Assembly (NCBI GenBank): GCA_028293565.1
Contig: JAQGON010000211.1
Span: forward strand, 1-39,970
Reading direction: 5' to 3'
DNA length: 39,970 nt
From: Verrucomicrobiota bacterium
GTDB taxonomy: Bacteria; Verrucomicrobiota; Verrucomicrobiia; Opitutales; Opitutaceae
Part shown: positions 2,440 to 19,213 of the stretch, in pieces
How positions within the stretch are numbered: position 1 is the stretch's first letter
How the letters are laid out: each line of letters opens with the position of its first letter
Notes under the pieces: generated by a model
Seen by the model: the letters and a program-made list of their open reading frames with translations, nothing else
What the model was told of the DNA's origin: nothing
The model's database searches: none
Program-made: the position numbers and the translations under genes

Positions 2440-3765
2440 TCACATCCGGCTCACCACCAGCGACGCATTCGTGCCGCCGAAGCCGAAGCTGTTCGCGAGG
2501 GCGGCGCGCACGGTCCTTTTCACCGCGGTGTGCGGAGTGAAGTTCAACCCGGTCGCCGCGCAGGCGGGGTCGAGATTCGTCAGGTTGATCGTCGGCGGGA
2601 CGATCCCGTCGCGGATCGCCAGCACGCCCGCCATCAGGCCCATCGCGCCGGCTCCGCCGAGGAGATGGCCGGTCATCGACTTCACGGCGCTGACCTGCAG
2701 CGCCGCCTTGTTCGCGGAAAAAACCGCCGCGATCGCCGTCGCCTCCTCGCCGTCGCCGCCCGGAGTGGACGTCGCATGCGCGGAAACGTAGTCGATCTCC
2801 GACGGATCCAGCCCGGCCCTGGCCAGCGCGAGCCGCATCGCGCGCGCGGAACCCTCCGCGCCCGGCGCGAGCGAGGAAAGATGAAATGCATCCGCCGACG
2901 CTCCGTAACCGCGCAGCTCGGCGTGGATCCGCGCCCCGCGTTTCACAGCGTGACCGTGCTCCTCGAGCACGAAGACCACCGCGCCTTCGGAGAGGACGAA
3001 GCCGTCGCGATCGCGGTCGTAGGGACGCGACGCCTCCTTCGGCGCCTCGTTGCGCGTGGACAGCGCGCGCATCTGCGCAAATGCGCCGATCGCCAGCGGA
3101 GTCACGGTCGACTCCGCGCCGCCGGCGATCATCACGTCGGCATCCCCGCGCGCGATCGCCGCCGCGGCCTCGCCGATCGCATGACCGCTGGTCGCGCAGG
3201 CCGAGGCCACGCTCATGTTGGGCCCGCGAAAATCCAGCAGCAGGCTCACCTGTCCTGCCAGCAGGTTGGGCGCGATCTGGATGATGAAAAAGGGCGAGAT
3301 ACGCCGGTAGCCGCCGGCTTTCCAGGTGTCGTGCATCGCCTCCATTTCCGGCAAGCCGCCAAGCCCGACGCCGAGGTTGACCCCCATCCGCTCCGCATCG
3401 AGGTGCAGCCGGTGGGCGTCGATTCCCGAATCGGCATAAGCCTCGACGGAGGCGGCCGCGCCGAGGTGCGTGAAGCGGCCGAATTTTTTCACGTCCTTCG
3501 GGTTCAGCACCTGTGACAGCGGCTCGGCCTCTTTTCCGCGCGGATGCAACGGCGCGGCCAGCGCCCGCGTCGGATCGAAATCCCGGACCTCGCCGGCGAT
3601 CCGCGCGGCGCAGCCGGTGGCGTCAAACCGGGTGATCGGCCCCAGCCCGCTGCGCCCGGCGATGAGCGCGGCCCAGGTGTCGGCCACGGAATTTCCGCAG
3701 GGCGTGACTGCGCCCATGCCGGTGATCACCACGCGGCGGGCGGACGAAGGGAGGGAGGTGTTCAT
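2440..3765 (-). CDS. fabF: 3-oxoacyl-[acyl-carrier-protein] synthase II (KAS II)
   Basis: Condensing enzyme of type II fatty-acid synthesis; it elongates acyl-ACP with malonyl-ACP in the cytoplasm. The 441-residue product has the whole thiolase-fold signature: RRVVITGMGAVTPCG at 10-24, active-site Cys190 in SVASACATSGHAIG, His330 in SAHATSTPGGD, Lys362 and His367 in VKSMTGHLLGGAG, and the C-terminal NSFGFGGTNASLV loop. It is slightly longer than typical FabF (about 412) because of an insertion near residues 72-90 after FDPTRAL. It starts inside the stop codon of the upstream tetR gene (ATGA overlap, 3762-3765), so translation is probably coupled. Being the second gene behind a TetR regulator suggests a dedicated or stress-responsive KAS paralog rather than the main housekeeping fabF (inference). 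No ACP gene is adjacent. Confidence 0.93.
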   Translation of the reverse strand: MNTSLPSSARRVVITGMGAVTPCGNSVADTWAALIAGRSGLGPITRFDATGCAARIAGEVRDFDPTRALAAPLHPRGKEAEPLSQVLNPKDVKKFGRFTHLGAAASVEAYADSGIDAHRLHLDAERMGVNLGVGLGGLPEMEAMHDTWKAGGYRRISPFFIIQIAPNLLAGQVSLLLDFRGPNMSVASACATSGHAIGEAAAAIARGDADVMIAGGAESTVTPLAIGAFAQMRALSTRNEAPKEASRPYDRDRDGFVLSEGAVVFVLEEHGHAVKRGARIHAELRGYGASADAFHLSSLAPGAEGSARAMRLALARAGLDPSEIDYVSAHATSTPGGDGEEATAIAAVFSANKAALQVSAVKSMTGHLLGGAGAMGLMAGVLAIRDGIVPPTINLTNLDPACAATGLNFTPHTAVKRTVRAALANSFGFGGTNASLVVSRM

Positions 3766-4352
3766 GAAAGAGTGGAAAAGGTGCGCCGCAGCATCCGGCG
3801 GCTCGAGGCGAGCAGTGCGTCGCTCCGCGCCAGATCGTCGGTGGCCCGCGCGAAGATCAGCGCACCGACCAGCGAACTCATCAAATGTGTCACCCGATCC
3901 CGGTTTTCCTCCGGATCGCGCGCCAGGCGGAGCGTGTCGCAGAGGCGGTCAATGTGCCGGATGAAACCGCACGCATATCCGGCGCGCGCCGGCCCGGTCA
4001 GCCGTCCCATGTCCGCGCCCACCGCCACAATCAGGCAGCCCGAGCCGCGGTTGTCGCGATGCCGCGGGGAAAGATAACTGTCGATCAGCAGCCGCGCCCG
4101 TTTGGCCGCCGTCGGCTGCGCGGCGATGCGCCCGAGATTTACCACCGCCTCGTCGAATGCCTCGACGCACGCCTCCGCGACCAGCTCGGACTTGTCGCGA
4201 AAGTGCGCATAAAATCCGCCATGCGTCAGCCCCGCGCGCCGCATCACCTCGTCGACGCCGGTGCTTTCCACGCCGCGCTCCCGGAACGCCGCGCTCGCCA
4301 CCGCGACAATGCGCCGCCTCGTCGTCTGCTTGTGATCTGCGGCGTAACGCAT
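3762..4352 (-). CDS. TetR/AcrR family transcriptional regulator
   Basis: The product begins MRYAADHKQTTRRRIV, followed by a canonical TetR helix-turn-helix (about residues 31-51, TGVDEVMRRAGLTHGGFYAHF) and an all-helical C-terminal ligand/dimerisation domain. Another ATG three codons upstream (4361) would add MIS. I prefer 4352 because relatives start with MRYA and because it leaves a longer leader after the predicted promoter. Its stop overlaps the fabF start by 4 bases, so the two form an operon. A perfect 6-bp inverted repeat with a 2-base spacer lies just upstream (4366-4379), overlapping the predicted -10 box, as expected for autorepression. The ligand is unknown; a fatty acid or acyl-CoA would suit the fabF partner, but that is a guess. 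Confidence 0.88.
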   Translation of the reverse strand: MRYAADHKQTTRRRIVAVASAAFRERGVESTGVDEVMRRAGLTHGGFYAHFRDKSELVAEACVEAFDEAVVNLGRIAAQPTAAKRARLLIDSYLSPRHRDNRGSGCLIVAVGADMGRLTGPARAGYACGFIRHIDRLCDTLRLARDPEENRDRVTHLMSSLVGALIFARATDDLARSDALLASSRRMLRRTFSTLS

Positions 4353-4365
4353 GGAAATCATTCAA

Positions 4366-4379
4366 ATGACGCTCGTCAT
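4366..4379 (-). promoter_or_regulatory. Predicted TetR-family operator upstream of the tetR-fabF operon
   Basis: ATGACGCTCGTCAT is a perfect inverted repeat of ATGACG with a 2-base centre. It sits 14 bases before the chosen tetR start and overlaps the predicted -10 hexamer by 2 bases. Position, symmetry and the neighbouring regulator gene suggest autoregulation. Confidence 0.55.
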
Positions 4380-4405
4380 ACTAATGAGCAAGCCGGATTT
4401 ATCAA
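4378..4405 (-). promoter_or_regulatory. Predicted sigma70-type promoter of tetR-fabF
   Basis: On the minus strand, TTGATA (4400-4405) is followed after 16 bases by TAGTAT (4378-4383). The expected start point is about 4371, inside the operator palindrome. The -35 box matches five of six consensus bases; the -10 box matches four. Confidence 0.4.
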
Positions 4406-4545
4406 AAATGACAGGCCTGCTAAACGTTTCGTAACAAGGGCGATACATCCCATCGGCGCGATGCGACCCATCGCAAGCCGCTCGGAACCCGGCCCCGCAC
4501 TCCGCCATTGCCCTCCGGTGGGCCGGACTCTTTGCTGACCGCCCT

Positions 4546-5076
4546 TTGAATACGCCGCAGCTTCACGCTTACTGGCGAATGGCGTACATTGAGGCGCCGC
4601 GCTATCCTTCGGAACTGAAACTGCCGTTCTCGGAGTTGCCGACAATCGGGGACGATCGGAAAGCCCTGATCGTTCACCGCTCGAAATACACATACCTCCT
4701 GTTGAATCGCTTTCCCTATAATCCAGGACACCTGCTGGCCGTTCCCTTTCGCGACGTGTCGAACCTGGAGGATCTCAAACCCGCCGAGCGCGCCGATCTC
4801 ATGGAGGAAATCGTGGTCGCCCGGCAGATGCTGCACGCCGCCGTGAAGCCCAACGGCTTCAACGTCGGCTTCAATCTCGGCACCGCCGCCGGCGGCAGCA
4901 TCTCCCACCTGCACGGCCACGTCGTGCCGCGCTGGAACGGGGACAATAATTTCATGCCCGTCCTCGGCCACACCCGCGTGCTTCCCCAATCGCTCGACGC
5001 CATGTGGGAGCGCCTCGCCGGCGACAAGAAAACGCTGCACCTCGCCAAACCGAAACTCCGCCGGCGCAGGACCTGA
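4546..5076 (+). CDS. HIT-family nucleotide hydrolase/transferase (Ap4A hydrolase-like)
   Basis: Histidine-triad protein of the Fhit/Ap4A-phosphorylase-like branch, which acts on dinucleoside polyphosphates or nucleotidyl conjugates. The triad is H121-L-H123-G-H125 in SHLHGHVVPRW. Upstream are the conserved LLLNRFPYNPGHLLAVPFR strand-loop (51-69) and GFNVGFNLGTAAGGS (104-118). The chosen start is TTG 4546, because LHAYWRMAYIEAP before the first ATG (4579) is conserved in relatives I recall. No clear Shine-Dalgarno site precedes it. The length (176 aa) fits the family. It is the first gene of a plus-strand group running into phoH, from which it is separated by 57 bases containing a heptamer repeat. 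Confidence 0.88.
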   Translation: MNTPQLHAYWRMAYIEAPRYPSELKLPFSELPTIGDDRKALIVHRSKYTYLLLNRFPYNPGHLLAVPFRDVSNLEDLKPAERADLMEEIVVARQMLHAAVKPNGFNVGFNLGTAAGGSISHLHGHVVPRWNGDNNFMPVLGHTRVLPQSLDAMWERLAGDKKTLHLAKPKLRRRRT

Positions 5077-5095
5077 CGGAGATCCGAAGGCGAAC

Positions 5096-5130
5096 CCGAA
5101 CTGCGATCTCCGAACTGCGAACTGCGATTC
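5096..5130 (+). repeat. Degenerate 7-nt repeat array (5 units)
   Basis: Units in register: CCGAACT, GCGATCT, CCGAACT, GCGAACT, GCGATTC. They fill most of the spacer between the HIT gene and phoH, ending three bases before the phoH ATG. Similar 7-nt arrays occur at 6149, 12287 and 31299. Confidence 0.6.
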
Positions 5131-5133
5131 GTC

Positions 5134-6144
5134 ATGCCGAGCAAAACGCTCCACTTCCCCAGCCCGCGGCACCTCCACTCCCTCTACGCCGGACGCGAGG
5201 AAAACCTCGCGCACGCCGAGCGCATGCTGGGCGTGAAACTCGTGACGCGCGACGAATGGCTGAAGATCGAGCCGCCGACCGGCACGAGCGCGGCCGACGC
5301 GGTGGAACCCATCCGCCGCACGGAAGACCTCTTCAATTTCCTCAACGAAGCGCGCGGACAGGGCATGACCATCCGGACTCCGGATTTCCACCGGATCACC
5401 GACGGCTTCGCGCGCGGGGAGGGCGACCAGATGCGCGCGCTCATCGACGAGCCGCTCGTCATCTCCACCAATCGCAAGAGCATCGTCCCGAAAACGCTTG
5501 GGCAGAAACTCTACCTCCAGTCGATGCTGGCCCACCCCATCGTGTTCGGCATCGGCCCCGCCGGCACCGGCAAGACCTACCTCGCCATGGCCGCCGCCGT
5601 GTCCGCCTTGCTGCGCAACCAGGTCGAGCGGATCATCCTCACCCGCCCCGCCGTCGAGGCGGGCGAAACCCTCGGTTTCCTCCCGGGCGACCTGCGCGAA
5701 AAAATCCTGCCCTACCTTCGTCCGCTGTACGATGCCCTGGGCGACATGCTCGATCCCGAGGACACCAGCCGGCTCACCGAAAAAGGCGTCATCGAGATCG
5801 CCCCGCTCGCCTACATGCGCGGACGCACGCTGTCGCGGAGCTTCGTCGTCCTCGACGAGGCCCAGAATACCACCCCCGAGCAGATGATGATGTTCCTCAC
5901 GCGCCTGGGCGAAGACTCGCGCATGGTGGTCACCGGCGACATCACCCAGATCGACCTGCCGCGTTCAAAGCAGAGCGGGCTTCTCGAGGTCCGCCACATT
6001 CTCGCCGACATCCCGGGCATCGATTTCCACACCTTCAGCGGCGCCGACGTGGTGCGGCATCCGCTCGTCGGCCGGATCATCGCCGCCTACGACGCCTACC
6101 GGAACCCGATGAACACCGAAAACGGCGCCGCGCCGAAACCGTAG
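5134..6144 (+). CDS. phoH: PhoH-family ATPase
   Basis: Cytoplasmic P-loop NTPase of the PhoH/PhoH-like family. The 336-residue protein has Walker A GPAGTGKT at 141-148, Walker B VVLDEAQN at 238-245, the GDITQIDLP sensor segment and the conserved GFLPGDLREK loop (181-190). The N-terminal ~110 residues resemble the KH-like extension found in PhoH proteins next to ybeY. Members encoded with ybeY and a PgpH-type gene are thought to act in RNA metabolism or ribosome maturation; the precise activity is not established. It lies 31 bases upstream of pgpH and two genes upstream of ybeY, an order conserved in many bacteria, so co-transcription is likely. Confidence 0.95.
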   Translation: MPSKTLHFPSPRHLHSLYAGREENLAHAERMLGVKLVTRDEWLKIEPPTGTSAADAVEPIRRTEDLFNFLNEARGQGMTIRTPDFHRITDGFARGEGDQMRALIDEPLVISTNRKSIVPKTLGQKLYLQSMLAHPIVFGIGPAGTGKTYLAMAAAVSALLRNQVERIILTRPAVEAGETLGFLPGDLREKILPYLRPLYDALGDMLDPEDTSRLTEKGVIEIAPLAYMRGRTLSRSFVVLDEAQNTTPEQMMMFLTRLGEDSRMVVTGDITQIDLPRSKQSGLLEVRHILADIPGIDFHTFSGADVVRHPLVGRIIAAYDAYRNPMNTENGAAPKP

Positions 6145-9219: not shown

Positions 9220-9338
9220 GGTGGGAGCGCGTTGCCGCAGACCCTGAGCTTGGCGAACGGACCTCACCGCGCTGGAGCCGCGAGCGACCTTGCACGGTCG
9301 ACGGAGCCGCCAACGCGTTGAGGGCAATGCGTTCCACC
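9220..9338. repeat. MITE-like intergenic repeat, copy A (long form with nested insert)
   Basis: Begins GGTGGGAGCGCGTTG and ends AACGCGTTGAGGGCAATGCG followed by TTCCACC, so its ends are inverted repeats of each other. The left hairpin loop holds the motif ACCCTGAGCTTGGCGAACGG (9241-9260), absent from the short copies. It fills the first part of the 480-base gene-free stretch 9191-9670, where no protein-like frame is seen. Confidence 0.7.
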
Positions 9339-9353
9339 TCTCCGGCACCTCTT

Positions 9354-9437
9354 GGTAGCAGCGGACGTCAGGAGGCTGACGCCCGCGTTCGGGCGAATAC
9401 GCGCAAACAGTCCAACCGCCTGACGGCGGCTGCTACC
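9354..9437. repeat. Second intergenic element: inverted ends enclosing three hairpins
   Basis: The ends GGTAGCAGC and GCTGCTACC are inverted. Between them are three consecutive hairpins: GTCAG-gagg-CTGAC (9367-9380), GCCCG-cgtt-CGGGC (9381-9394) and CCGCC-tgac-GGCGG (9417-9430). It sits between two MITE-like copies. Confidence 0.6.
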
Positions 9438-9440
9438 GGA

Positions 9441-9533
9441 GGTGGAGCGCATTGCCCTCAATGCGCTGGAGGTGCGAGCAGGACCCAAAGGACTGACGGA
9501 GCGTCCAACGCGTTGAGGGCAACGCGTTCCACC
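9441..9533. repeat. MITE-like intergenic repeat, copy B (short form)
   Basis: The left end is hairpin AGCGCATTG-CCCT-CAATGCGCT and the right end is hairpin AACGCGTTG-AGGG-CAACGCGTT. The two ends are also inverted repeats of each other (about 25 of 29 positions). A solitary left end, GGGTGGAGCGCATC, follows at 9567-9580. The remainder of the gap to 9670 shows no other structure. Confidence 0.7.
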
Positions 9534-9670
9534 CGCTGTCCGGCGCCAGCGTTTCCAACTTCCGGAGGGTGGAGCGCATCACTTCGCGGAGGACGACAAA
9601 CCGTTTTGACGGCACGCCTTGAATCAACCATGAGTGAGCCGTCCCCTAAGCCCCGCCGGTTTCTCTCCCG

Positions 9671-10765: not shown

Positions 10766-11446
10766 ATGCCTGCCCGCCCTTCCCGTTCCATCGCCACGCT
10801 CCGCACCGCTTTTTTCTCGGGACTGCTGCTGCTCGCACCGCTCGTCGTCACCGTCTGGGCGTTCACCAAGATCATTGACCTCGTCGGCGGCACGTTTCGT
10901 CCGCTCTTCTTCTTTTACATGCCCGAATGGCTGCTCAGCAGCCCGCGGCTCGCCATCGTCTGGGACATCCTCGCGACCATCATCGTCGTCCTGCTGGTGA
11001 CCCTGCTCGGTTTTCTCTCCCGCTACGTGTTCGGAAAATATTTCCTCGAGGTCGGCGAACGCGTCATCCAGGGCATCCCCGGGGTGAGTGCGGTCTACAA
11101 CACGGTCAAGCAGATCGTCGACACCTTCGGCACCCAGAACCGGAATCTCTTCAGCAAGGTCGTGCTCGTCCAGTATCCGCGCCGCGAGGTCTGGACGCTC
11201 GGCTTTTTGACGAGCAAGGCGCAGGCCGAGGCGCAGACGCGCACGGGCCAGGAGGTCTGGACGGTTTTCGTGCCGACTTCGCCCAACCCCACCAGCGGTT
11301 TCCTGCTGATGCTGCCGCGAGCGGAAGTCACCGAGCTGGAAATGACGGTCGGCGACGGCATGAAGATGGTGATTTCCGGCGGCGCGGTGGTGCCGCCCTG
11401 GAACAAACCGGACCCCGCGCGGAAAATCGCCGCGACCGAAACCTGA
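10766..11446 (+). CDS. DUF502 family membrane protein
   Basis: The 226-residue inner-membrane protein has two N-terminal transmembrane segments (about 14-40 and 58-83). After these comes the family's conserved stretch GERVIQGIPGVSAVYNTVKQ (about 97-116), then SKVVLVQYPRREVWTLGFLT and the VFVPTSPNPTSGFLLMLP block. This order matches DUF502 proteins, which have no established biochemical function. The C-terminal part is hydrophilic and probably cytoplasmic. The next gene (recO-like) starts 4 bases after its stop, so the two are co-transcribed. ATG 10766 is preceded by repeat-derived sequence, and no clear promoter was seen. Confidence 0.88.
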   Translation: MPARPSRSIATLRTAFFSGLLLLAPLVVTVWAFTKIIDLVGGTFRPLFFFYMPEWLLSSPRLAIVWDILATIIVVLLVTLLGFLSRYVFGKYFLEVGERVIQGIPGVSAVYNTVKQIVDTFGTQNRNLFSKVVLVQYPRREVWTLGFLTSKAQAEAQTRTGQEVWTVFVPTSPNPTSGFLLMLPRAEVTELEMTVGDGMKMVISGGAVVPPWNKPDPARKIAATET

Positions 11447-11450
11447 GCGT

Positions 11451-12071
11451 GTGCCGGGCCTTCCCCTCCAGACCGATGGATTCGTGCTGCTGAAGGGCGC
11501 GCCGACCGACGCGTTCCAGGGCTTCACGGTTTTTTCCCCCGAGCACGGGGCACTGCTCGTGCAGCAGCGGTTGTCGCGCAAGGCGACGTCGTCCGTCGCC
11601 CTCGATCTCTTCGACGAGGTTTCGCTGCGGCTCGAGAGCCCCAACCAGGGCCAGACGTGGTTTGTGCAGGAAGCCCGCCTGCTGGCCCGCCATCCCGACC
11701 TCGGGCGAAGCTACGAGACGCTCCGCCACGCCTCCGCCGTCGCGGCGCTCGTCGCGCGCAACACCGTCCACGAAGACAGCCGCGCGCAGGTGGCCGCGCT
11801 GCTCCGCCAGGCGTTCGCCTCCTTCGCCGCCGGCGCGCGGCCCGACCTCGTGTGGTTCAAGACCCTTTACGTCTTCGCCCGCGACGAAGGCTACCCGGTC
11901 AAGCAGGAATGGCTGCCCTCGCTGCCCCCGCCAATGCGCGCGCAGGCGAAACACTTTCTCGCGACCCCTCTGGCCTCTCTGGAAATGCCCGCGACCCAGC
12001 CCCAGATCGCCGTCCTCGCCCAGCGCCTCGCCGATTACCTCCGGGGTCACTCGGACATTCTGGTGGAGTAG
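11451..12071 (+). CDS. recO: RecO-like DNA repair protein
   Basis: The 206-residue product starts at GTG 11451. TDGFVLLKGAPTDAFQGFTV followed by FSPEHGALLVQQRLSRK fits the RecO N-terminal OB fold (the usual pattern is a conversion of exogenous signal to 'tLfTrehGkl...arGark'). The rest is helical with ASAVAALVARN and VWFKTLYVFARDEGYPV, as in the RecO C-terminal domain. RecO anneals SSB-coated DNA and loads RecA with RecR. The C-terminal zinc-binding cysteines of many RecO proteins are absent. Linked to DUF502 (4-base gap) and followed by a repair-type helicase gene, which fits. The assignment is by pattern and length, so moderate. Confidence 0.62.
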   Translation: MPGLPLQTDGFVLLKGAPTDAFQGFTVFSPEHGALLVQQRLSRKATSSVALDLFDEVSLRLESPNQGQTWFVQEARLLARHPDLGRSYETLRHASAVAALVARNTVHEDSRAQVAALLRQAFASFAAGARPDLVWFKTLYVFARDEGYPVKQEWLPSLPPPMRAQAKHFLATPLASLEMPATQPQIAVLAQRLADYLRGHSDILVE

Positions 12072-12072
12072 A

Positions 12073-12245
12073 TTTGAACAGAAGAGAACCAAGGAAACGA
12101 AGCGCCGTCCGTGCGCGGAGTCTGCGTTGCGAGCGGGAAATAAATCGGAGAGGGGTTCGGAAACCAAACCGATCACGGGATGCCGCTTGCAACCCGGGGC
12201 CCTTCAACGGACGGCGCTTCGTTCCTCGGTTCTCTTCTGTTCAAA
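12073..12245. repeat. Long imperfect inverted repeat with 9-nt internal period
   Basis: Left arm 12073-12112 and right arm 12207-12245 are inverted copies differing by one substitution and one indel. Within the left arm the sequence repeats every 9 bases: GAACAGAAG, AGAACCAAG, GAAACGAAG. The 94-base centre shows no gene. It occupies the gap after the recO-like gene and might act as a terminator hairpin. Confidence 0.75.
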
Positions 12246-12286
12246 AAAGGGTTCGGCGCCCGCGAAGCACGGCTTGAAGTTGCTTT

Positions 12287-12314
12287 GAGGCTTGGATGCT
12301 GGAGCTTGGAGCTT
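12287..12314 (+). repeat. 7-nt repeat array (4 units) upstream of the helicase gene
   Basis: GAGGCTT, GGATGCT, GGAGCTT, GGAGCTT. The ATG at 12296 falls inside this array, which argues against using it as the helicase start. The last GGAG may serve as a ribosome-binding site for ATG 12323. Confidence 0.6.
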
Positions 12315-12322
12315 TCCCGCTC

Positions 12323-14839
12323 ATGGATTTCAACCTCGACCGACGCACCGCCAGCCTGAGCGTGGGGGAATTCTCGGCGTTCACCACCGGGCCGCACGAC
12401 GCCGGCGAGGGCGCGGCGGGACTCTGGCGCGCGCAGCTCGGCACCCACTGGCACAACGAGCTGCGCCTGCGCGCGACCGACGAGTCGCCCGGGGCGGAAT
12501 TCGAAATCCCGGTGACGGGACAGATTTTCCACGCCGGCTGGACACTCACGCTCGCCGGCCGGATCGACCAGCGGGTGAAGCGCGGCGACGTCCAGGTCCT
12601 CCGCGAAATCAAGACCGTCACGCGGCCGCTGCCCGAGGATGAATCCGTCCTGCGCGCCGATTATCCGTCCTACTTCGTCCAGCTCGCCACCTATGTCTCG
12701 CTGCTGCGCCCGGCGGACGGGACTCCGGCCGCGCCGGGGGGCGAGCTCGTGTTCGTCGAAACCGGCAGCGGACTGGCCCAGACCGTTTTGCTGCTCCCGA
12801 CCGACGACCGCCTGCTCCGCGCGCAGCTCGAGCGCATCGTCGAGTTTCTCAACCTCCGCCTGCGCGCGCGGGCGCGCCTGCGGGCCCTGCGGTTCCGGCC
12901 GGCCTTCACCGATCCGCGCCCCGGACAGGAAACGACGCAGGCCGAGCTGACCGCCGTGTTCGAGCGGCAACCACTCGTGCTCTTCGAGGCCCCGACGGGT
13001 TTCGGCAAGACCGGCGTGCTGCTGGAGTTCGCCCTCGGACAGCTGAAATCCGGCCACTTCGATCGCGCACTCTACCTCACGAGCAAGTCCACCGGACAGC
13101 TCCAGGTCGTCCGCACCCTCGCCGGCATGACGGGGGCGCCGTCTGGCGCCGGAGAAAAATTCCAGAATGAGGACGGAAGAATGGCCGATCCGACTGCTTC
13201 GATCCTGAGTCCGGAATCCCTCGCCGCGACCACGGCGGTCGCGGTCTGGCATGTCCGGAACAAGGCCGAGCACTGCGTCAATTCCACGTTCCACTGCGTC
13301 CGTGAATCCTGCGGCTATCTCGACCAGCTGGAAAAACGCTGGCCCGGCAGCGGGCTCTCGCGGTTCTATCTCTTCGAGCACCACGCGCGCGACCTCGAAA
13401 CCCTCCGCTCCGCCGGGCGCGACGCGCGCATCTGCCCCTACGAGATCACGCGGGCCTCGCTCGCCTTCAACGATGTCTGGATCGGCGACTACAATTACGT
13501 GTTCGCTCCGCGCAACCGCTCGCTGTTCTACCAGCAGCCCGGCTTCGACCCGGCGCGGACGCTCCTCCTGCTCGACGAGGCGCACAACCTGCCGTCGCGG
13601 GTGGCGGACGCGCACTCGCACCTGGTGCGCAGCGACGATGCCCGCGCGGTCCTGGCCGAGCTCGACCACCTCCGCGTGCCCGCGTCCCTGCTTCGCGCAT
13701 GGGAAAGCTGGGCACAGCTTCTCGCCGCGCTCCAGCCGGTCGACGCCCTCGACCCGGCCCTCGAGGCGGATGTCGAGGAGACGGTGGGACGGATTTCCGA
13801 TCTGCTCCTCGATGCGCCGGTCGACTACGCCGCGCTGGGGCCGCAACTCAGCGAGGTGCTGTGGCAGACACCGCAACTGAGGGAATGGCTGGCCGACGCC
13901 CGCCTGAGGAAGCTTTTGTGGTGTCCCCGCGCGGGCGAACTCTCCCTGACGTGCCTCGACGCCGCCGAGGTGATCGGCGCGACCCTCCGCGACTACGGCG
14001 GCGTGGTGCTCGCCAGCGCGACGCTTTTGCCGGCGGAGAATTTCGCGGAAGCGTGCGGCATTGCCGAGGGCGCATCGCCGACGGCGGACCAGGGCGGCGA
14101 AAGCGGGGAGTTCGCGGCGGTGGGAAATTCCGCACCCCGCAGTCCGCCCGCCGTCCTGCTCGCGCACACGCCGTGGCGCGACGGAGCCTACGACGTCGCC
14201 GTCGATGCGCGCGTCGACACCACCTTCCACCATCGCTCGCGGTACTACGCGATGACGGCGGAAACGGTCGCGGCCCTCCACGCTTCCGCGCGAAACGCGG
14301 TCGCGGTGTTTTTCCCGAGCTACGCCTATGCCGAGGCGGTCGCGCGCGCGCTCGAGCAGGGCGGACCGGGGATGAAGCTGCCCCACGGTCCGCTGCGCGT
14401 CGCGCTGCAGCCGCGGCAGCGCGACCTCGCGGCGCAGACGGCGTGGGTGGAGGAATCGCTCGCGTTCACCGACGCGCTTTTTCTCGTGCTCGGTTCGAGT
14501 TTCGCCGAGGGAATCGATGCGCTGGGCGGGCGTGTCACGCACGCGATGGTCGTCGGACCGGCGCTGCCGGAAGTGAATGCCGTCCAACGGGCGCGCCTCG
14601 CGGAATTTTCGGGACGCGGACGCGAGGCGGCGTTCCGTCGCGTCTACCAGATTCCCGGCATGACGAAGGTGAACCAGGCGCTCGGCCGGCTCGTGCGCGC
14701 TCCTGGGCAGCGCGCCCGTGTGATCCTCCATTGCCGCCGTTTCGCCGAACCCGCCTACGCGAGCCTTCTCGCGCGCGATTACCAGTTCGGCACCAACCTC
14801 CTCGCCGACGCCGACCTCGCCGCGTGGCTGGCGCTGTAG
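12323..14839 (+). CDS. Fe-S (XPD/DinG-type) helicase with N-terminal PD-(D/E)XK nuclease domain
   Basis: This 838-residue protein joins two activities. The N-terminal ~200 residues carry RecB/Cas4-like nuclease motifs: D82 in AGRIDQR, E95-I-K97 in LREIKTV and Q120-L-A-T-Y124. The remainder is a superfamily 2 helicase of the DinG/XPD group. It has Walker A APTGFGKTG at about 223-231, four cysteines (AEHCVN, FHCVRESC, ARICPYE) placed like the Fe-S cluster ligands of XPD, and the DEAH box at 418-421 (LLLLDEAHNLPS). C-terminal motifs include FFPSYAYAE, LVLGSSFAEGID and NQALGRLVRA. A role in DNA repair or removal of abnormal structures is likely by family. The preferred start is ATG 12323; ATG 12296 lies in a repeat array. 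It is downstream of a recO-like gene. Confidence 0.88.
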   Translation: MDFNLDRRTASLSVGEFSAFTTGPHDAGEGAAGLWRAQLGTHWHNELRLRATDESPGAEFEIPVTGQIFHAGWTLTLAGRIDQRVKRGDVQVLREIKTVTRPLPEDESVLRADYPSYFVQLATYVSLLRPADGTPAAPGGELVFVETGSGLAQTVLLLPTDDRLLRAQLERIVEFLNLRLRARARLRALRFRPAFTDPRPGQETTQAELTAVFERQPLVLFEAPTGFGKTGVLLEFALGQLKSGHFDRALYLTSKSTGQLQVVRTLAGMTGAPSGAGEKFQNEDGRMADPTASILSPESLAATTAVAVWHVRNKAEHCVNSTFHCVRESCGYLDQLEKRWPGSGLSRFYLFEHHARDLETLRSAGRDARICPYEITRASLAFNDVWIGDYNYVFAPRNRSLFYQQPGFDPARTLLLLDEAHNLPSRVADAHSHLVRSDDARAVLAELDHLRVPASLLRAWESWAQLLAALQPVDALDPALEADVEETVGRISDLLLDAPVDYAALGPQLSEVLWQTPQLREWLADARLRKLLWCPRAGELSLTCLDAAEVIGATLRDYGGVVLASATLLPAENFAEACGIAEGASPTADQGGESGEFAAVGNSAPRSPPAVLLAHTPWRDGAYDVAVDARVDTTFHHRSRYYAMTAETVAALHASARNAVAVFFPSYAYAEAVARALEQGGPGMKLPHGPLRVALQPRQRDLAAQTAWVEESLAFTDALFLVLGSSFAEGIDALGGRVTHAMVVGPALPEVNAVQRARLAEFSGRGREAAFRRVYQIPGMTKVNQALGRLVRAPGQRARVILHCRRFAEPAYASLLARDYQFGTNLLADADLAAWLAL

Positions 14840-14840
14840 A

Positions 14841-14948
14841 GTGTAGCACGGGTCTCCGACCCGTGTGGGCGGACTCTGCCAACGGAGCACGTCGAGCACA
14901 CCCGTTGAGCTCGAGCCCACCTTCACGGGTCGGAGACCCGTGCTACAC
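14841..14948. repeat. Perfect 25-bp inverted repeat built from CACGGGT hairpins
   Basis: Arms 14841-14865 and 14924-14948 are exact inverted copies. Each arm is itself a hairpin (CACGGGT-ctccg-ACCCGTG). A further GTGGGC/GCCCAC pair lies just inside. It sits between the convergent helicase and isomerase genes and could end transcription from either side. Confidence 0.8.
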
Positions 14949-14973
14949 GTGGCTACCGTTTTATTTAAAACAC

Positions 14974-15921
14974 CTAGTTTATCAGCTCCTCGACCCTCGC
15001 CTTGGACGCGCGGACGTCGTCGACCGGGATCCGGGGGCTCAGCTCGATCACCAGGAGGTGTTCCGGCCGCCAGAATTCGCTGACCATCCTGAAATCGATC
15101 TTGCCCTTGCCGATGCCCTGATGGTCGCGGCCTTCCGCGTCGACGTCGTGGAGGTGAAACCCGATCAGCCGCGAAGCCATTTTTTCCAGGTGCGCCCGAT
15201 GGTCGAGGATCCCCATCGACTGCTTGATGTCCGCGTGCCCCGTGTCGTGCCAGTAGCCGGCCGGAGCGTCGGCGGGCAGGCTGGCCAGAAACGCCGGATA
15301 ATCCTCATCGAGCGGAAGCTCGTCGAACGCCTCGCGGTTTTCGAAGCCGAGCCTCACGCCTTTTTCCGCCGCGCGGCCGAGCACCTGCCGCACGTTTCCC
15401 GTCGTGCGTTCCCAATAGGGCCCCATTTTTTTCCGCAGCCGGGCCAGCGAGCTGGCGAGCAGCGCCCGGTAGGTCTTGTCGCCGGCCAGGTCCGCGGAAG
15501 GATGCCGCGCGAGATAGGCCTCGAGCTTCTCCTTCGGATTGAACCAGAAGAATCCGACGCTTCCCAGGTGGCAGACCAGCACGCGGGCCTTCACCTGGGC
15601 CGCAAAGTCGATCGAGCGCCCGGTGTGCCGCAGCCACTGGTCGCGCTCCTGCGAGTTCTCGGCCGACGGCTCGAACAGGTTTGGCGCCGCATGCAGCACG
15701 CCGGTGGGCAGCGGGCAGAAATTATGCGTCGAGCCGATCCGGACCACGCCGTCCTCGACCGCCTTGAGGATTCCCGGCACGAGCGTGATGCGAATGCCAT
15801 GGCTCAGCTCGATGAATTCGAAGCCGAGCCCCGCCATCTCCTCCGCCATCGCATAACCGTCCGTATGCCGCGAGGAACACCAGCTGGTGGAAAGGCACAG
15901 GGTCGGTTTCGCGCGGGGCAC
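14974..15921 (-). CDS. Sugar phosphate isomerase/epimerase, TIM-barrel (AP_endonuc_2 family)
   Basis: The 315-residue cytoplasmic TIM-barrel protein of the xylose-isomerase-like superfamily has the expected metal-binding strands: a Glu in LGFENREAFDE, His/Asp in YWHDTGHADIK, His in GFHLHDVD, and the late GIGKGKIDF loop followed by VIELSP. Length is normal. Members isomerise or epimerise sugars or inositols; the substrate cannot be told from sequence. It is the last gene in a minus-strand group with a GH2 glycosidase, a sensor kinase and a heparinase-like lyase, consistent with processing of released monosaccharides. The gap to the GH2 gene is 120 bases and holds an ill-defined GAAGCGCGGAGAAGCG segment. 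Confidence 0.82.
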   Translation of the reverse strand: MPRAKPTLCLSTSWCSSRHTDGYAMAEEMAGLGFEFIELSHGIRITLVPGILKAVEDGVVRIGSTHNFCPLPTGVLHAAPNLFEPSAENSQERDQWLRHTGRSIDFAAQVKARVLVCHLGSVGFFWFNPKEKLEAYLARHPSADLAGDKTYRALLASSLARLRKKMGPYWERTTGNVRQVLGRAAEKGVRLGFENREAFDELPLDEDYPAFLASLPADAPAGYWHDTGHADIKQSMGILDHRAHLEKMASRLIGFHLHDVDAEGRDHQGIGKGKIDFRMVSEFWRPEHLLVIELSPRIPVDDVRASKARVEELIN

Positions 15922-16041
15922 GGCTTCTCACGAAGCCAGCGCCACCCGCGATTGCACCAAAAAAATTCGGCGGCGCCGCATTCGACCACGGAAGCGCGGA
16001 GAAGCGAAAGACCGGAACCGGATTCGGCCTTCCGCGCGCCC

Positions 16042-17997
16042 TCACCTCTTCAGCTCCGCATACCCGTCCCGCACGTCCTTCAGGCTGCGCTTCACGCTGC
16101 AGGGATAGGCGATGTACGCGTCCGACATCTGCGGCCAGCTGTCCGCGAGGTTCCACAGGAAAATTCCCCAGCAGTTCGGCTGGTTGCCGTAAAATTCGAT
16201 CCAGAACTTCGACGCCTCGCCCTGCAGCCGCTGCGATTTCTCGATCAGCTCCGCGAGGCTCTTCGGCTCGGGCCAGCCGCGCTCGCGGATGCTCTCGAAA
16301 TTCAGCCGGTAGCGCGCGACGCGATCGAGCCGGATGCAGTCCGACCCATGGGTCAGGTGCTCCGCGTGGTACACCGGCCAGAGATTCTCCGGGCTCACGT
16401 AGGCGCGCACCACCTCCTCCGCGGGCAGGCTGAGATGCCCGATTTCGGTCACCATCCGCGGCCGCTGCTTCACGTAAAAATCCGACCGGTACGACAGGCC
16501 GTGGCCCCAGATGTGGCAGTCGCCTTCCATCGGGGCGTTCTGGTCATAGGTGAACGGCGAATAGGGCGACGTCGGCACGTACGGCGTCGCCGGCGCATGC
16601 GCGTGCACCGCGTCGCGGAGCACTTCCTTGCTGAGGCGATTGTGCCGGTAAGCCGGGTAATTGAAGCTATTGTCGGCCAGCACGTCGTTCTCGTTGTCGC
16701 CGAACCACGCGATCATGCAGGCAAAATGACGGAGCCGCTTCACCTGGAACTCCGCCTCCTTGCGCGCCTCGTCGAGAAACGCGAGGTCCTGCGGATAACA
16801 GCCGCACGCAAACATGAAATCGTGGGTGATCAGGATGCCGAGCTCGTCGCACTTCGCATAAAACGAATCCAGCTCGTAGACCCCCCCGCCCCAGACGCGC
16901 ATGGCATTGATGTGGGTTTCCTTCGCGATCTTCAGCAGCTGGTCGTAGCGCGCGTCGTCCACCCGCGCGAAAATTGCGTCGGCCGGCGTCCAGTTCATGC
17001 CCTTGAGAAAGATCTTCCTCCCGTTGACCGCGAAAACGAACGAGATGCCGCCATCGTCGTCCGGCTCCTGGACCAGCTGCACCGTGCGAATCCCGAATCG
17101 TCCACGGCGCTCATCGAGCTGCCGTCCGCCGCGGCGCAGCGTCGCGCTCCAGTCGTGGAGCGGCTGCGCGCCGTGGTTGTGCGGCCACCACATCCGGGCC
17201 TGCGGGACGGTGAACCGCTCGACGTGGCGTCCGCCGCCCGCGTCGCAGGGAATGGTAATCGTCCGGGTCTGGCCCGCGACCGTCAGCTCGACCTCCGCCG
17301 CGCCGGGCTTGCCGTGGTTCAGCGTCAGCTCGACCAGCGCCTCGAGCTCCGCCGTCCCGTCCTTCAGCGCGACGGTGTTCACAAAGACGTCCGCGATCTC
17401 CACCTCGTCGACGAGCAGGAACAAGACGGGTTTCCAGATTCCGATCGTGACCATGCGCGGCGAGATGTTCCAGCCGTAGCACGACTGCGACTTCCGCACC
17501 TGCAGGCGGGTGATCTGGCCGTATCCGCGAACGTCCGGCTGGCGCGCCGGGCGGTCGGGCGGGAAGAGCGGCGCACCCAGGCAGACCTCGAGGCGGTTCG
17601 CGCCGGGCGCCACGTGGTCCGTGACGTCGATGCGCAGCGGCGTGAACATGTTCGCATGCCGGCCCACCTCCTTGCCGTTGAGGTGGACCGTCGCAAAGAC
17701 ATCGAGGCCCTCGAACAGCAGGTGGACGCGCTGGCCCGCCGCCGGAACCGGCGGCGTGATCTCGGCGCGGTACCACCAGTCCATTTCCTCCATCCAGCGG
17801 AGCTGGTCGTGATTGAGCCCGAAGAACGGCTCCGGGATCAGTCCCGCGCGCCGGTAATCGAGGTGCACGTCGCCCGGCACCTCCGCGGGAACCCACCGTT
17901 CCTCGAGCGGCATCGCCGAGCACGCCGGCGTCGGACCCAGATTGGGCTCCGCGTGCATGAGTTTCCAGGTGGCAGCGAGGGGAACGGATTTTTTCAT
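16042..17997 (-). CDS. GH2 beta-mannosidase-like glycoside hydrolase, short form
   Basis: The 651-residue product has the GH2 sugar-binding jelly-roll (about 35-195, with VPGDVHLDYRRAGLIPEPF and WWYRAEI), the Ig-like domain (about 196-310) and the TIM barrel (about 325-640). The barrel shows KGMNWTPAD, MRVWGGGVYE, acid/base Glu436 in WFGDNEND and nucleophile Glu518 in MVTEIGHLS. Overall pattern fits beta-mannosidase, which releases mannose from the non-reducing end of manno-oligosaccharides. It ends soon after the barrel (LWNLADSWPQMSDAYIAYPC), lacking the C-terminal domains that bring typical enzymes to over 800 residues. No signal peptide, so probably cytoplasmic. It starts 37 bases after the histidine kinase gene. 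Exact substrate is uncertain. Confidence 0.85.
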   Translation of the reverse strand: MKKSVPLAATWKLMHAEPNLGPTPACSAMPLEERWVPAEVPGDVHLDYRRAGLIPEPFFGLNHDQLRWMEEMDWWYRAEITPPVPAAGQRVHLLFEGLDVFATVHLNGKEVGRHANMFTPLRIDVTDHVAPGANRLEVCLGAPLFPPDRPARQPDVRGYGQITRLQVRKSQSCYGWNISPRMVTIGIWKPVLFLLVDEVEIADVFVNTVALKDGTAELEALVELTLNHGKPGAAEVELTVAGQTRTITIPCDAGGGRHVERFTVPQARMWWPHNHGAQPLHDWSATLRRGGRQLDERRGRFGIRTVQLVQEPDDDGGISFVFAVNGRKIFLKGMNWTPADAIFARVDDARYDQLLKIAKETHINAMRVWGGGVYELDSFYAKCDELGILITHDFMFACGCYPQDLAFLDEARKEAEFQVKRLRHFACMIAWFGDNENDVLADNSFNYPAYRHNRLSKEVLRDAVHAHAPATPYVPTSPYSPFTYDQNAPMEGDCHIWGHGLSYRSDFYVKQRPRMVTEIGHLSLPAEEVVRAYVSPENLWPVYHAEHLTHGSDCIRLDRVARYRLNFESIRERGWPEPKSLAELIEKSQRLQGEASKFWIEFYGNQPNCWGIFLWNLADSWPQMSDAYIAYPCSVKRSLKDVRDGYAELKR

Positions 17998-18034
17998 CGG
18001 AGAAATGCCGGAAAGGTGACCGCCGGTGTCGCCG

Positions 18035-19213
18035 TCAGTTGCCGAGCATGCGCACGCGGCGGTCCTTGCGCGGGAACTGGAGCGAGACGGCCGTGCCGCG
18101 GCCTTCCTTGCTCTCGATGCCGATCTGCCCGCCGTGCGCGCGCATGATCCGCTGCACGATCATCAGCCCGAGGCCGTGTCCGCCGGTCTTCGTCGTGTGG
18201 TAGGGCTGGAAGAGCCGCGGGAGATCCTCGGGCTTGATCCCCGCGCCGCTGTCGCCGAAAACCAGATACACGTTGCCGTCGTCGGCGCGCGACCGGATCT
18301 TGAGCGCGCCGCCGGGCTGCATCGCCTCGATCGCGTTCTTCGTGATGTTGAAGAACACCTGTTTCAGCTGGTTCCGGTCCGCCATCACGGTCGGCAGCTC
18401 GGCTGGCGTCTCGGCCTCGACCTTGATCCCGCGGTCGGCGAACTCGTTCTGCTGGAACCGCAGGACCTCGGCCAGGACCTCGGCGAGATTCGTCTCCGCG
18501 AGGTCCGGCGGCCGCGGACGGATCGCCTCGAGAAAATTGCTGATGATGCCGTCGAGGCGCTGGACCTCCTGCTCGCAGATCTCGATCGATTCCGCGAGCG
18601 ATCCGGAATCCCTGCCCTCCGCGAGCTTCAGCTTGCGCAGCTTCCGCTCGATCAGCTGCAGGTGGATCGTGAGCGAGTTGAGCGGGTTGCCGAGCTCGTG
18701 CGCTACGCCCGCGGCGAGCAGGATGATCGACGAGGTCCGCTCGCTCTCGATCCGCTCCTCCGTGCTCTGCTTCTCCCGCGTGATGTCGGAAAGGATCACG
18801 GCAAAACGGTGCGCCGAGACTTTTCCCTCGCCGCGAAACGGCACCATATACAGCCGCAGGCTCCGCGGCTCGGGATAGGTCAGCTCGAACTCGCGGGTGA
18901 CCACCGACGAGGCCGTGCCGCTCGGGTCGAACGACTCGAGCGACGTCCGCAGGCCCGGCACGAGCCTCCACAGCGTCTCGCCCGTGAGGCTGTCCGCGCC
19001 GAGCCCGACCAGGCGCTGGGCCGCGGCGTTCGCATATTCGATCCGGCCGTCGGCTCCGATCACGAGCACGCCTTCCTGCAGCATGTTGAAGATGTCCTCG
19101 AACAGCCCCCGCTCGCGCGCGAGGCGCTGCACGAGGTTCGAGAGATTGACCGAGTCGAGCGTGTCGAGCCTTCCCAGCACCCGGTCAAGCGAGGAGGTTT
19201 TTCTTCCGGCCAT
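18035..19213 (-). CDS. Soluble PAS-domain sensor histidine kinase
   Basis: The 392-residue product has no membrane segment. A PAS domain (about 38-145, GVLVIGADGRIEYANAAAQ) is followed by a HisKA-type dimerisation helix with phospho-acceptor His172 in GVAHELGNPLNSL. The HATPase domain has the N box NITKNAIEAM (289-298), G1 DSGAGI (321-326), FQPYHTTK and G2 GHGLGLMIVQ (345-354). The layout resembles NtrB-like cytoplasmic kinases. No response regulator is adjacent, so its partner lies elsewhere. It is embedded between the heparinase-like gene (gap 32 bases) and the GH2 gene (gap 37 bases) on the same strand, which suggests a regulatory link to carbohydrate use or simply operon hitch-hiking. Confidence 0.9.
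   Translation of the reverse strand: MAGRKTSSLDRVLGRLDTLDSVNLSNLVQRLARERGLFEDIFNMLQEGVLVIGADGRIEYANAAAQRLVGLGADSLTGETLWRLVPGLRTSLESFDPSGTASSVVTREFELTYPEPRSLRLYMVPFRGEGKVSAHRFAVILSDITREKQSTEERIESERTSSIILLAAGVAHELGNPLNSLTIHLQLIERKLRKLKLAEGRDSGSLAESIEICEQEVQRLDGIISNFLEAIRPRPPDLAETNLAEVLAEVLRFQQNEFADRGIKVEAETPAELPTVMADRNQLKQVFFNITKNAIEAMQPGGALKIRSRADDGNVYLVFGDSGAGIKPEDLPRLFQPYHTTKTGGHGLGLMIVQRIMRAHGGQIGIESKEGRGTAVSLQFPRKDRRVRMLGN

Follow-up and report, generated by a model that had tools for sequence, protein, structure and literature searches.

What kind of enzyme joins a nuclease and an Fe-S helicase in a single chain, and does it serve repair, defence or some other process? The question is raised by a gene in a 39,970-nt stretch of DNA (the window) from an Opitutaceae member of the Verrucomicrobiota. 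Its product is referred to as the fusion protein, and the features discussed are listed in Table 1. The frame is open from an alternative in-frame ATG at 12296, which would yield 847 aa. In the alignment, the family consensus begins at the Met of 12323, and this position is therefore probably the right start. Residue numbers refer to the 838-aa chain; nine must be added for the 847-aa numbering. A long open frame on the opposite strand (12173-14926) was rejected as most likely an artefact of high GC content. No Rfam match was found in the region 11900-15100 at E<=0.1.

Table 1. Features of the fusion gene and its surroundings, and relatives with altered Fe-S cysteines.
Feature	Position or loci	Strand	Basis
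Nuclease-helicase gene, EndoDinG-type	12323..14839	+	single chain, 838 aa
PD-(D/E)XK (RecB/Cas4-type) nuclease domain	12323..12907	+	residues 1-195, motifs, model fold
XPD/DinG-type SF2 helicase core	12908..14836	+	Pfam matches, motif residues
Fe-S cysteine region	13274..13435	+	Cys 318, 325, 330, 371
Divergent recO-like gene, directly upstream	11451..12071	+	family matches to TIGR00613
DUF502 protein gene	10766..11446	+	PF04367 3.9e-34
Zero-cysteine relatives (1)	L076, L092, L093, L096, L123, L124, L126-L130		
Zero-cysteine relatives (2)	L133, L135, L142, L143, L146, L154, L155		
Irregular Cys pattern	L125, L151		

The original prediction described a PD-(D/E)XK nuclease, marked by D82, E95-x-K97 and Q120-x3-Y124, fused to an XPD/DinG-type helicase with an Fe-S cluster. 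All five nuclease residues are present. H44 and E61, which were absent from that list, complete a RecB-type active site with the layout H44, E61, G79-R80-x-D82, E95-x-K97, Q120-x3-Y124. The domain thus carries the GxxD, ExK and QxxxY motifs on a RecB fold, as RecB/Cas4-type nucleases do. In a first alignment of 88 rows, each spanning query residues 80 to 800 and including two exact duplicates, E61, D82, E95, K97, Q120 and Y124 are found in every row and H44 in 87, the remaining row having a gap.

A larger set was built from open frames of at least 500 aa in 156 loci, of which 151 matched the family and 142 were full length. Nine of the 151 were dropped and two duplicates removed, leaving 140 distinct full-length rows. 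The dropped sequences are six truncated relatives (L032, L036, L038, L039, L075 and L110), a partial copy of the fusion gene (L098), the YoaA-like paralogue of the host (L097) and a Cupriavidus copy with an unaligned N-terminal part (L102). Copies cut by a contig edge, such as L041, L044 and L045, lie outside the set. H44, D82, E95, K97, Q120 and Y124 are invariant in all 140 rows and E61 in 139, the sole exception being L079; R80 is changed in a single row (L132). The expectation that the motif residues would be kept in homologues is thus borne out. Identity to the fusion protein falls as low as 22% over the whole chain and 19% over the nuclease domain in a 59-row alignment, which was obtained from the 72 rows left by an 80% identity filter after 13 had been removed by hand for brevity. 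Judged from these alignments, conservation of the motif is far above chance, and invariance at such low identity indicates that the nuclease site is under strong selection.

The nuclease half of the fusion protein matches nothing in Pfam or PADLOC, and NCBIfam and PHROGs each match the helicase half only. Searched by itself with phmmer, the nuclease domain found no PDB sequence at E<=10. Relatives of the domain were reached by profile and fold searches only. The Pfam model PDDEXK_1 matches 43 of the 59 aligned N-terminal domains at E<=1, with a best value of 9.2e-9. AlphaFold2 modelled the full chain with a pLDDT of 90.6; for residues 1-204 in the 847-aa numbering, the value is 93.4. Compared with solved structures, the modelled nuclease domain is closest to the N-terminus of 9kqh, a Finegoldia magna DinG (Z 14.8, rmsd 5.1, 178 aligned residues), followed by SSO0001 (Z 12.8, rmsd 4.2, 159), MGME1 (Z 12.1, rmsd 5.9, 166), the Cas4 part of a Cas4/Cas1 chain (Z 10.8, rmsd 6.2, 162), RecE (Z 10.7, rmsd 3.7, 162), EXO5 (Z 10.1, rmsd 4.6, 146), AddA (Z 9.5, rmsd 3.9, 139) and Dna2 (Z 8.3, rmsd 3.6, 160). 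Foldseek lists the same group of nucleases, with Dna2 not among the best 50. Since matches near Z 8 include the unrelated proteins eIF3d and DXO, the weight of the comparison lies on the top group of matches together with the motifs. On this model, the N-terminal domain has the fold of a PD-(D/E)XK nuclease, as the proposed comparison of the first 200 or so residues with RecB and Cas4 folds had anticipated.

The second half is a complete helicase. It matches Helicase_C_2 (6.3e-22) and DEAD_2 (7.6e-14) in Pfam and carries a Walker A motif (APTGFGKT), a DEAH box at residues 418-421 and a motif VI of the QxxGRxxR type (QALGRLVR). Ten helicase motif residues were checked and are invariant in all 140 rows. 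The four Fe-S cysteines (318, 325, 330 and 371) are all kept in the fusion protein. Motifs, fold, Pfam matches and the alignment with 9kqh therefore agree that nuclease and Fe-S helicase occur in one chain, and the claim of a complete helicase with four cysteines and a DEAH box holds.

Matches to the fusion protein are found in 97 of the 177 sampled genomes of the order and in 65 of the 288 genomes of the phylum. About a dozen of the latter match weakly, at the C-terminal helicase end, and may be ordinary DinG proteins. A collection of plasmids yielded 14 matches, all from Bacillota and Pseudomonadota, one of which covers at least 80% of the query (Legionella sainthelensi, 22.6% identity); five of the 14 are annotated as “ATP-dependent DNA helicase” and the others are unannotated. 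Phage records yielded 16 matches, all in unannotated records and none covering 80% of the query, and a phage family was not accepted.

The two halves were also followed separately. A profile built from the helicase part within the order scores 11 relatives outside the order at 158-298 bits and the YoaA-like helicase of the host (L097) at 64. One of these 11 relatives, L102, has no aligned nuclease half. A profile built from the nuclease part finds nine relatives and does not match the YoaA-like protein; this order-only profile misses L101 and L102 at E<=1, including the Enterococcus domain, which a full-length profile does align, motif residues included. These sequence comparisons suggest that the two halves have stayed joined for a long time, probably after one ancient fusion. 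The joint history is suggested rather than shown, because a single outside helicase was available for the comparison of helicase profiles. In L102 (Cupriavidus campinensis), the match at 3191-5823 is spread over two overlapping frames, and this copy may consequently be frameshifted or wrongly sequenced.

The gene resides in a recurring chromosomal cluster. The upstream gene had been called recO-like. The protein itself matches no RecO model, and 12 of the 26 aligned members of its family match TIGR00613 at E<=1 (best 6.5e-5), in agreement with that designation; at E<=10, TIGR00613 detects no RecO anywhere in the genome. In 42 of 46 loci, the recO-like gene lies upstream of the fusion gene on the same strand, and the other four loci start at a contig edge. 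DUF502 (40 loci), ybeY (34), pgpH (32) and phoH (29) are likewise found upstream on the same strand, and all five genes occur in the order of the source genome in 27 of the 46 loci. Six loci (L015, L017, L027, L029, L030 and L035), each with several kb of upstream DNA, lack phoH, pgpH and ybeY and retain DUF502 and the recO-like gene; the tight association is therefore with these last two. The relatives with the recurring cluster are apparently Opitutales. A little-studied, published class of nuclease-helicase is thereby placed in a recurring chromosomal cluster beside a recO-like gene. Downstream (14974-18971, minus strand), the genes include those for a TIM-barrel (AP_endonuc_2) protein and a glycoside hydrolase family 2 protein.

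Elsewhere in the host genome, a second Helicase_C_2 protein is closest to YoaA, its best NCBIfam match lying below the cut-off of that model. Two PDDEXK_1 matches were found on one contig, beside AddA/RecB-like helicase sequence. In one locus of this genome (L099, 2-2749, minus strand, contig C150), an open frame of 916 aa that runs off the locus contains a PDDEXK_1 match followed by the start of an AddA/RecB-like helicase; AddB- and AddA-like parts may be joined here or read in one frame.

Several repeats were also noticed in the window. A near-perfect palindrome of about 176 bp (12072-12247) separates the recO-like and fusion genes. Its predicted fold has an energy of -105.6 kcal/mol (z -10.4), and it has no Rfam match. 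The palindrome belongs to an interspersed family, of which 116 pieces were matched across the genome at E<=0.001 (40 of the 75 candidates were scored), a figure that exceeds the number of copies because both strands and single arms are counted. Several pieces stand as close pairs, and the family looks MITE- or REP-like. Directly after the stop codon of the fusion gene, an inverted repeat with 36-nt arms that are 89% complementary (14841-14948) is possibly a terminator or another repeat. Several overlapping inverted repeats of 21-34 nt are clustered after ybeY, at 9307-9540.

The fusion protein is likely to be a chromosomal, EndoDinG-type and Dna2-like nuclease-helicase that serves genome maintenance or repair. 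XPD helicases travel 5'->3' on single-stranded DNA, and the nuclease of Dna2 cuts the translocated or displaced strand. The helicase would accordingly move 5'->3' along single-stranded DNA, the polarity being that of the XPD family, and the strand being fed or displaced would be cleaved by the nuclease attached at the beginning of the motor. Such Dna2-like work may be carried out on flaps, gaps, stalled forks or similar structures, ahead of RecFOR/RecA repair. We infer both activities, the substrate and the repair role; a published assay of the fusion protein or of a close relative was not found. The neighbourhood weighs against a repair reading, as it reflects shared ancestry within one family and includes the RNA genes ybeY and phoH, so that the link to recO may be incidental. 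An unwinding role throughout the family is opposed by the loss of Fe-S ligands in some relatives. Moreover, with AddA-like and YoaA/DinG-like proteins also encoded in the genome, the enzyme may have a narrow task.

The RNA genes could instead point to an RNA-linked role, in which the enzyme both unwinds and cleaves R-loops or contributes to the quality control of rRNA. Both ybeY, which encodes an rRNA maturation RNase, and phoH recur near the gene in relatives, and the Listeria DinG exonuclease is reported to act on unprocessed rRNA (PMC12774634). This role is nevertheless unlikely: the nuclease fold best matches DNA nucleases and the immediate neighbour is recO-like, and the nuclease of the Listeria enzyme is presumably of the DEDD type.

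Defence systems often contain nuclease-helicase pairs, and the original prediction left room for either a repair or a defence-like DNA-processing enzyme. An enzyme that degrades invading DNA would be in keeping with the match of the fusion protein to the PADLOC model typeIV_DinG (5.2e-60), but this match is limited to the helicase (203-826), with no PADLOC model matching the nuclease domain at E<=0.1. The ten neighbouring proteins show no convincing defence match in the 2023 PADLOC library. They give partial matches for which the HD, ATPase or glycosidase domains of these proteins account; for instance, the glycoside hydrolase family 2 protein matches the model of a CARF-beta-galactosidase fusion (1.9e-29) in its glycosidase part. 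Recurring housekeeping genes upstream, the presence of the gene in more than half of the sampled genomes of the order and the lack of a convincing PADLOC neighbour argue for a chromosomal maintenance enzyme over a defence gene. We consider defence very improbable, and of the two options in the original prediction, DNA processing is the likeliest function, while the defence part receives no support from PADLOC or from the neighbours. An N-terminal domain devoid of catalysis, serving as a DNA-binding clamp beside an active helicase, is scarcely credible, even though pseudo-nuclease forms of DinG exist (pExoDinG, among the forms covered in PMC11981726) and Pfam does not recognize this domain, since catalytic and QxxxY residues invariant over very diverged relatives would be unexpected in a dead domain.

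The Fe-S site varies within the family. Among the 140 rows, 95 have four cysteines, 25 have three, 18 have none and two are irregular. All 58 rows from L001-L067 have four, and the pattern is degenerate elsewhere in the order. The 18 zero-cysteine rows all come from this order (group codes f3, f4 and f63) and keep the nuclease and helicase residues that were checked; their share describes this sample, which was drawn from part of the matching genomes of the order and comprises 40 selected stretches (one taken twice) in addition to the loci returned by the searches. On a tree scored for presence or loss of the cysteines, parsimony requires six changes, and the starred branches force at least three for the zero-cysteine group. 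The number of losses is approximate, as the tree is a quick one with long-branch warnings. Most XPD helicases that have been characterised require the Fe-S ligands in order to unwind. It is a real possibility, falling a little short of probable, that part of the order has lost the Fe-S cluster, probably on several occasions, with no change in the nuclease-site and helicase-motif residues examined, and that the cluster is dispensable there. If so, these nuclease-helicases form a naturally occurring series with four, three or no cysteines for asking what the cluster does, and natural ligand loss would make its role in XPD-family enzymes testable across natural proteins. The CCCC motif of EndoDinG is called conserved in the review that describes the class (PMC11981726, sections on DinG subgroups), a statement that is not true of every part of this order. 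Those sections report Fe-S-free forms in other DinG subgroups and describe none for EndoDinG. The Fe-S losses may be the sole part of our findings that is new.

Among known systems, Dna2 resembles the fusion protein in that a single chain holds a RecB-type nuclease followed by a helicase. The helicase of Dna2 belongs to SF1, and the Fe-S cluster of Dna2 sits in the nuclease. In contrast, the helicase of the fusion protein is of the SF2/XPD type and its nuclease domain has no cysteine, the first one (residue 327 of 847) lying outside the domain. The Fe-S cysteines inside the nuclease that characterise the Cas4, AddB, Dna2 and EXO5 type are hence absent.

ExoDinG proteins, to which the DinG proteins of Staphylococcus aureus and Bacillus subtilis belong, also combine an N-terminal nuclease with an XPD-type helicase, but the nuclease is a 3'-5' exonuclease (DEDD in B. 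subtilis) and not a PD-(D/E)XK enzyme. The S. aureus protein aligns to our model only from residue 187 on, outside the nuclease domain. Membership in ExoDinG was rejected, as the N-terminal model matches PD-(D/E)XK nucleases and bears their motif. The original prediction had set the fusion apart from the DEDD-type fusions of Gram-positive bacteria. This contrast is incomplete, because Gram-positives carry PD-(D/E)XK-DinG proteins too: in addition to Finegoldia magna (9kqh), full-length relatives with the nuclease motif are found in Enterococcus gallinarum, Paenibacillus and Acetoanaerobium.

The name EndoDinG was given to this architecture in a review of DinG-like proteins from 2025 (PMC11981726). 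Its section on the class describes DinG proteins that bear a PD-(D/E)XK domain at the N-terminus, with the residues H, E, D, E and K, and cites the endonuclease activity of the Bdellovibrio protein as unpublished data. Further traits of the class are a short Arch domain and the lack of beta7 in motor domain 2. The terms “Opitut” and “Verrucomicrob” do not occur in the main text of the review. The fusion protein has a PD-(D/E)XK domain with H, E, D, E and K, a DinG/XPD core and a CCCC Fe-S motif; it is of the EndoDinG type and a well-conserved member of the family. It shares the N-terminal PD-(D/E)XK domain, the DinG helicase and the CCCC motif with Bdellovibrio bacteriovorus DinG, a likeness that is drawn from the description in the review. 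The novelty implied by the original prediction is thus not upheld: as the class is already named and the crystal structure of a relative is public, the fusion protein is not a new kind of system.

That relative, 9kqh (“Finegoldia magna DinG in complex with ssDNA and ADPNP”, released 2025-12-03), is the closest solved structure; a literature search found no paper on it. The profile search for the same domain order that had been proposed succeeded in finding end-to-end relatives, and 9kqh aligns with the family profile over its entire length (7.1e-147). The full-length model superposes on it with Z 26.5 and rmsd 5.5 over 710 aligned residues (model 16-830 on chain 2-748). In the deposited chain, which is probably an engineered nuclease-dead form, Ala takes the place of the motif Asp. 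At 22% identity over the aligned part, 9kqh and the fusion protein share the domain order and the H, E, E-x-K and Q-x3-Y residues of the nuclease.
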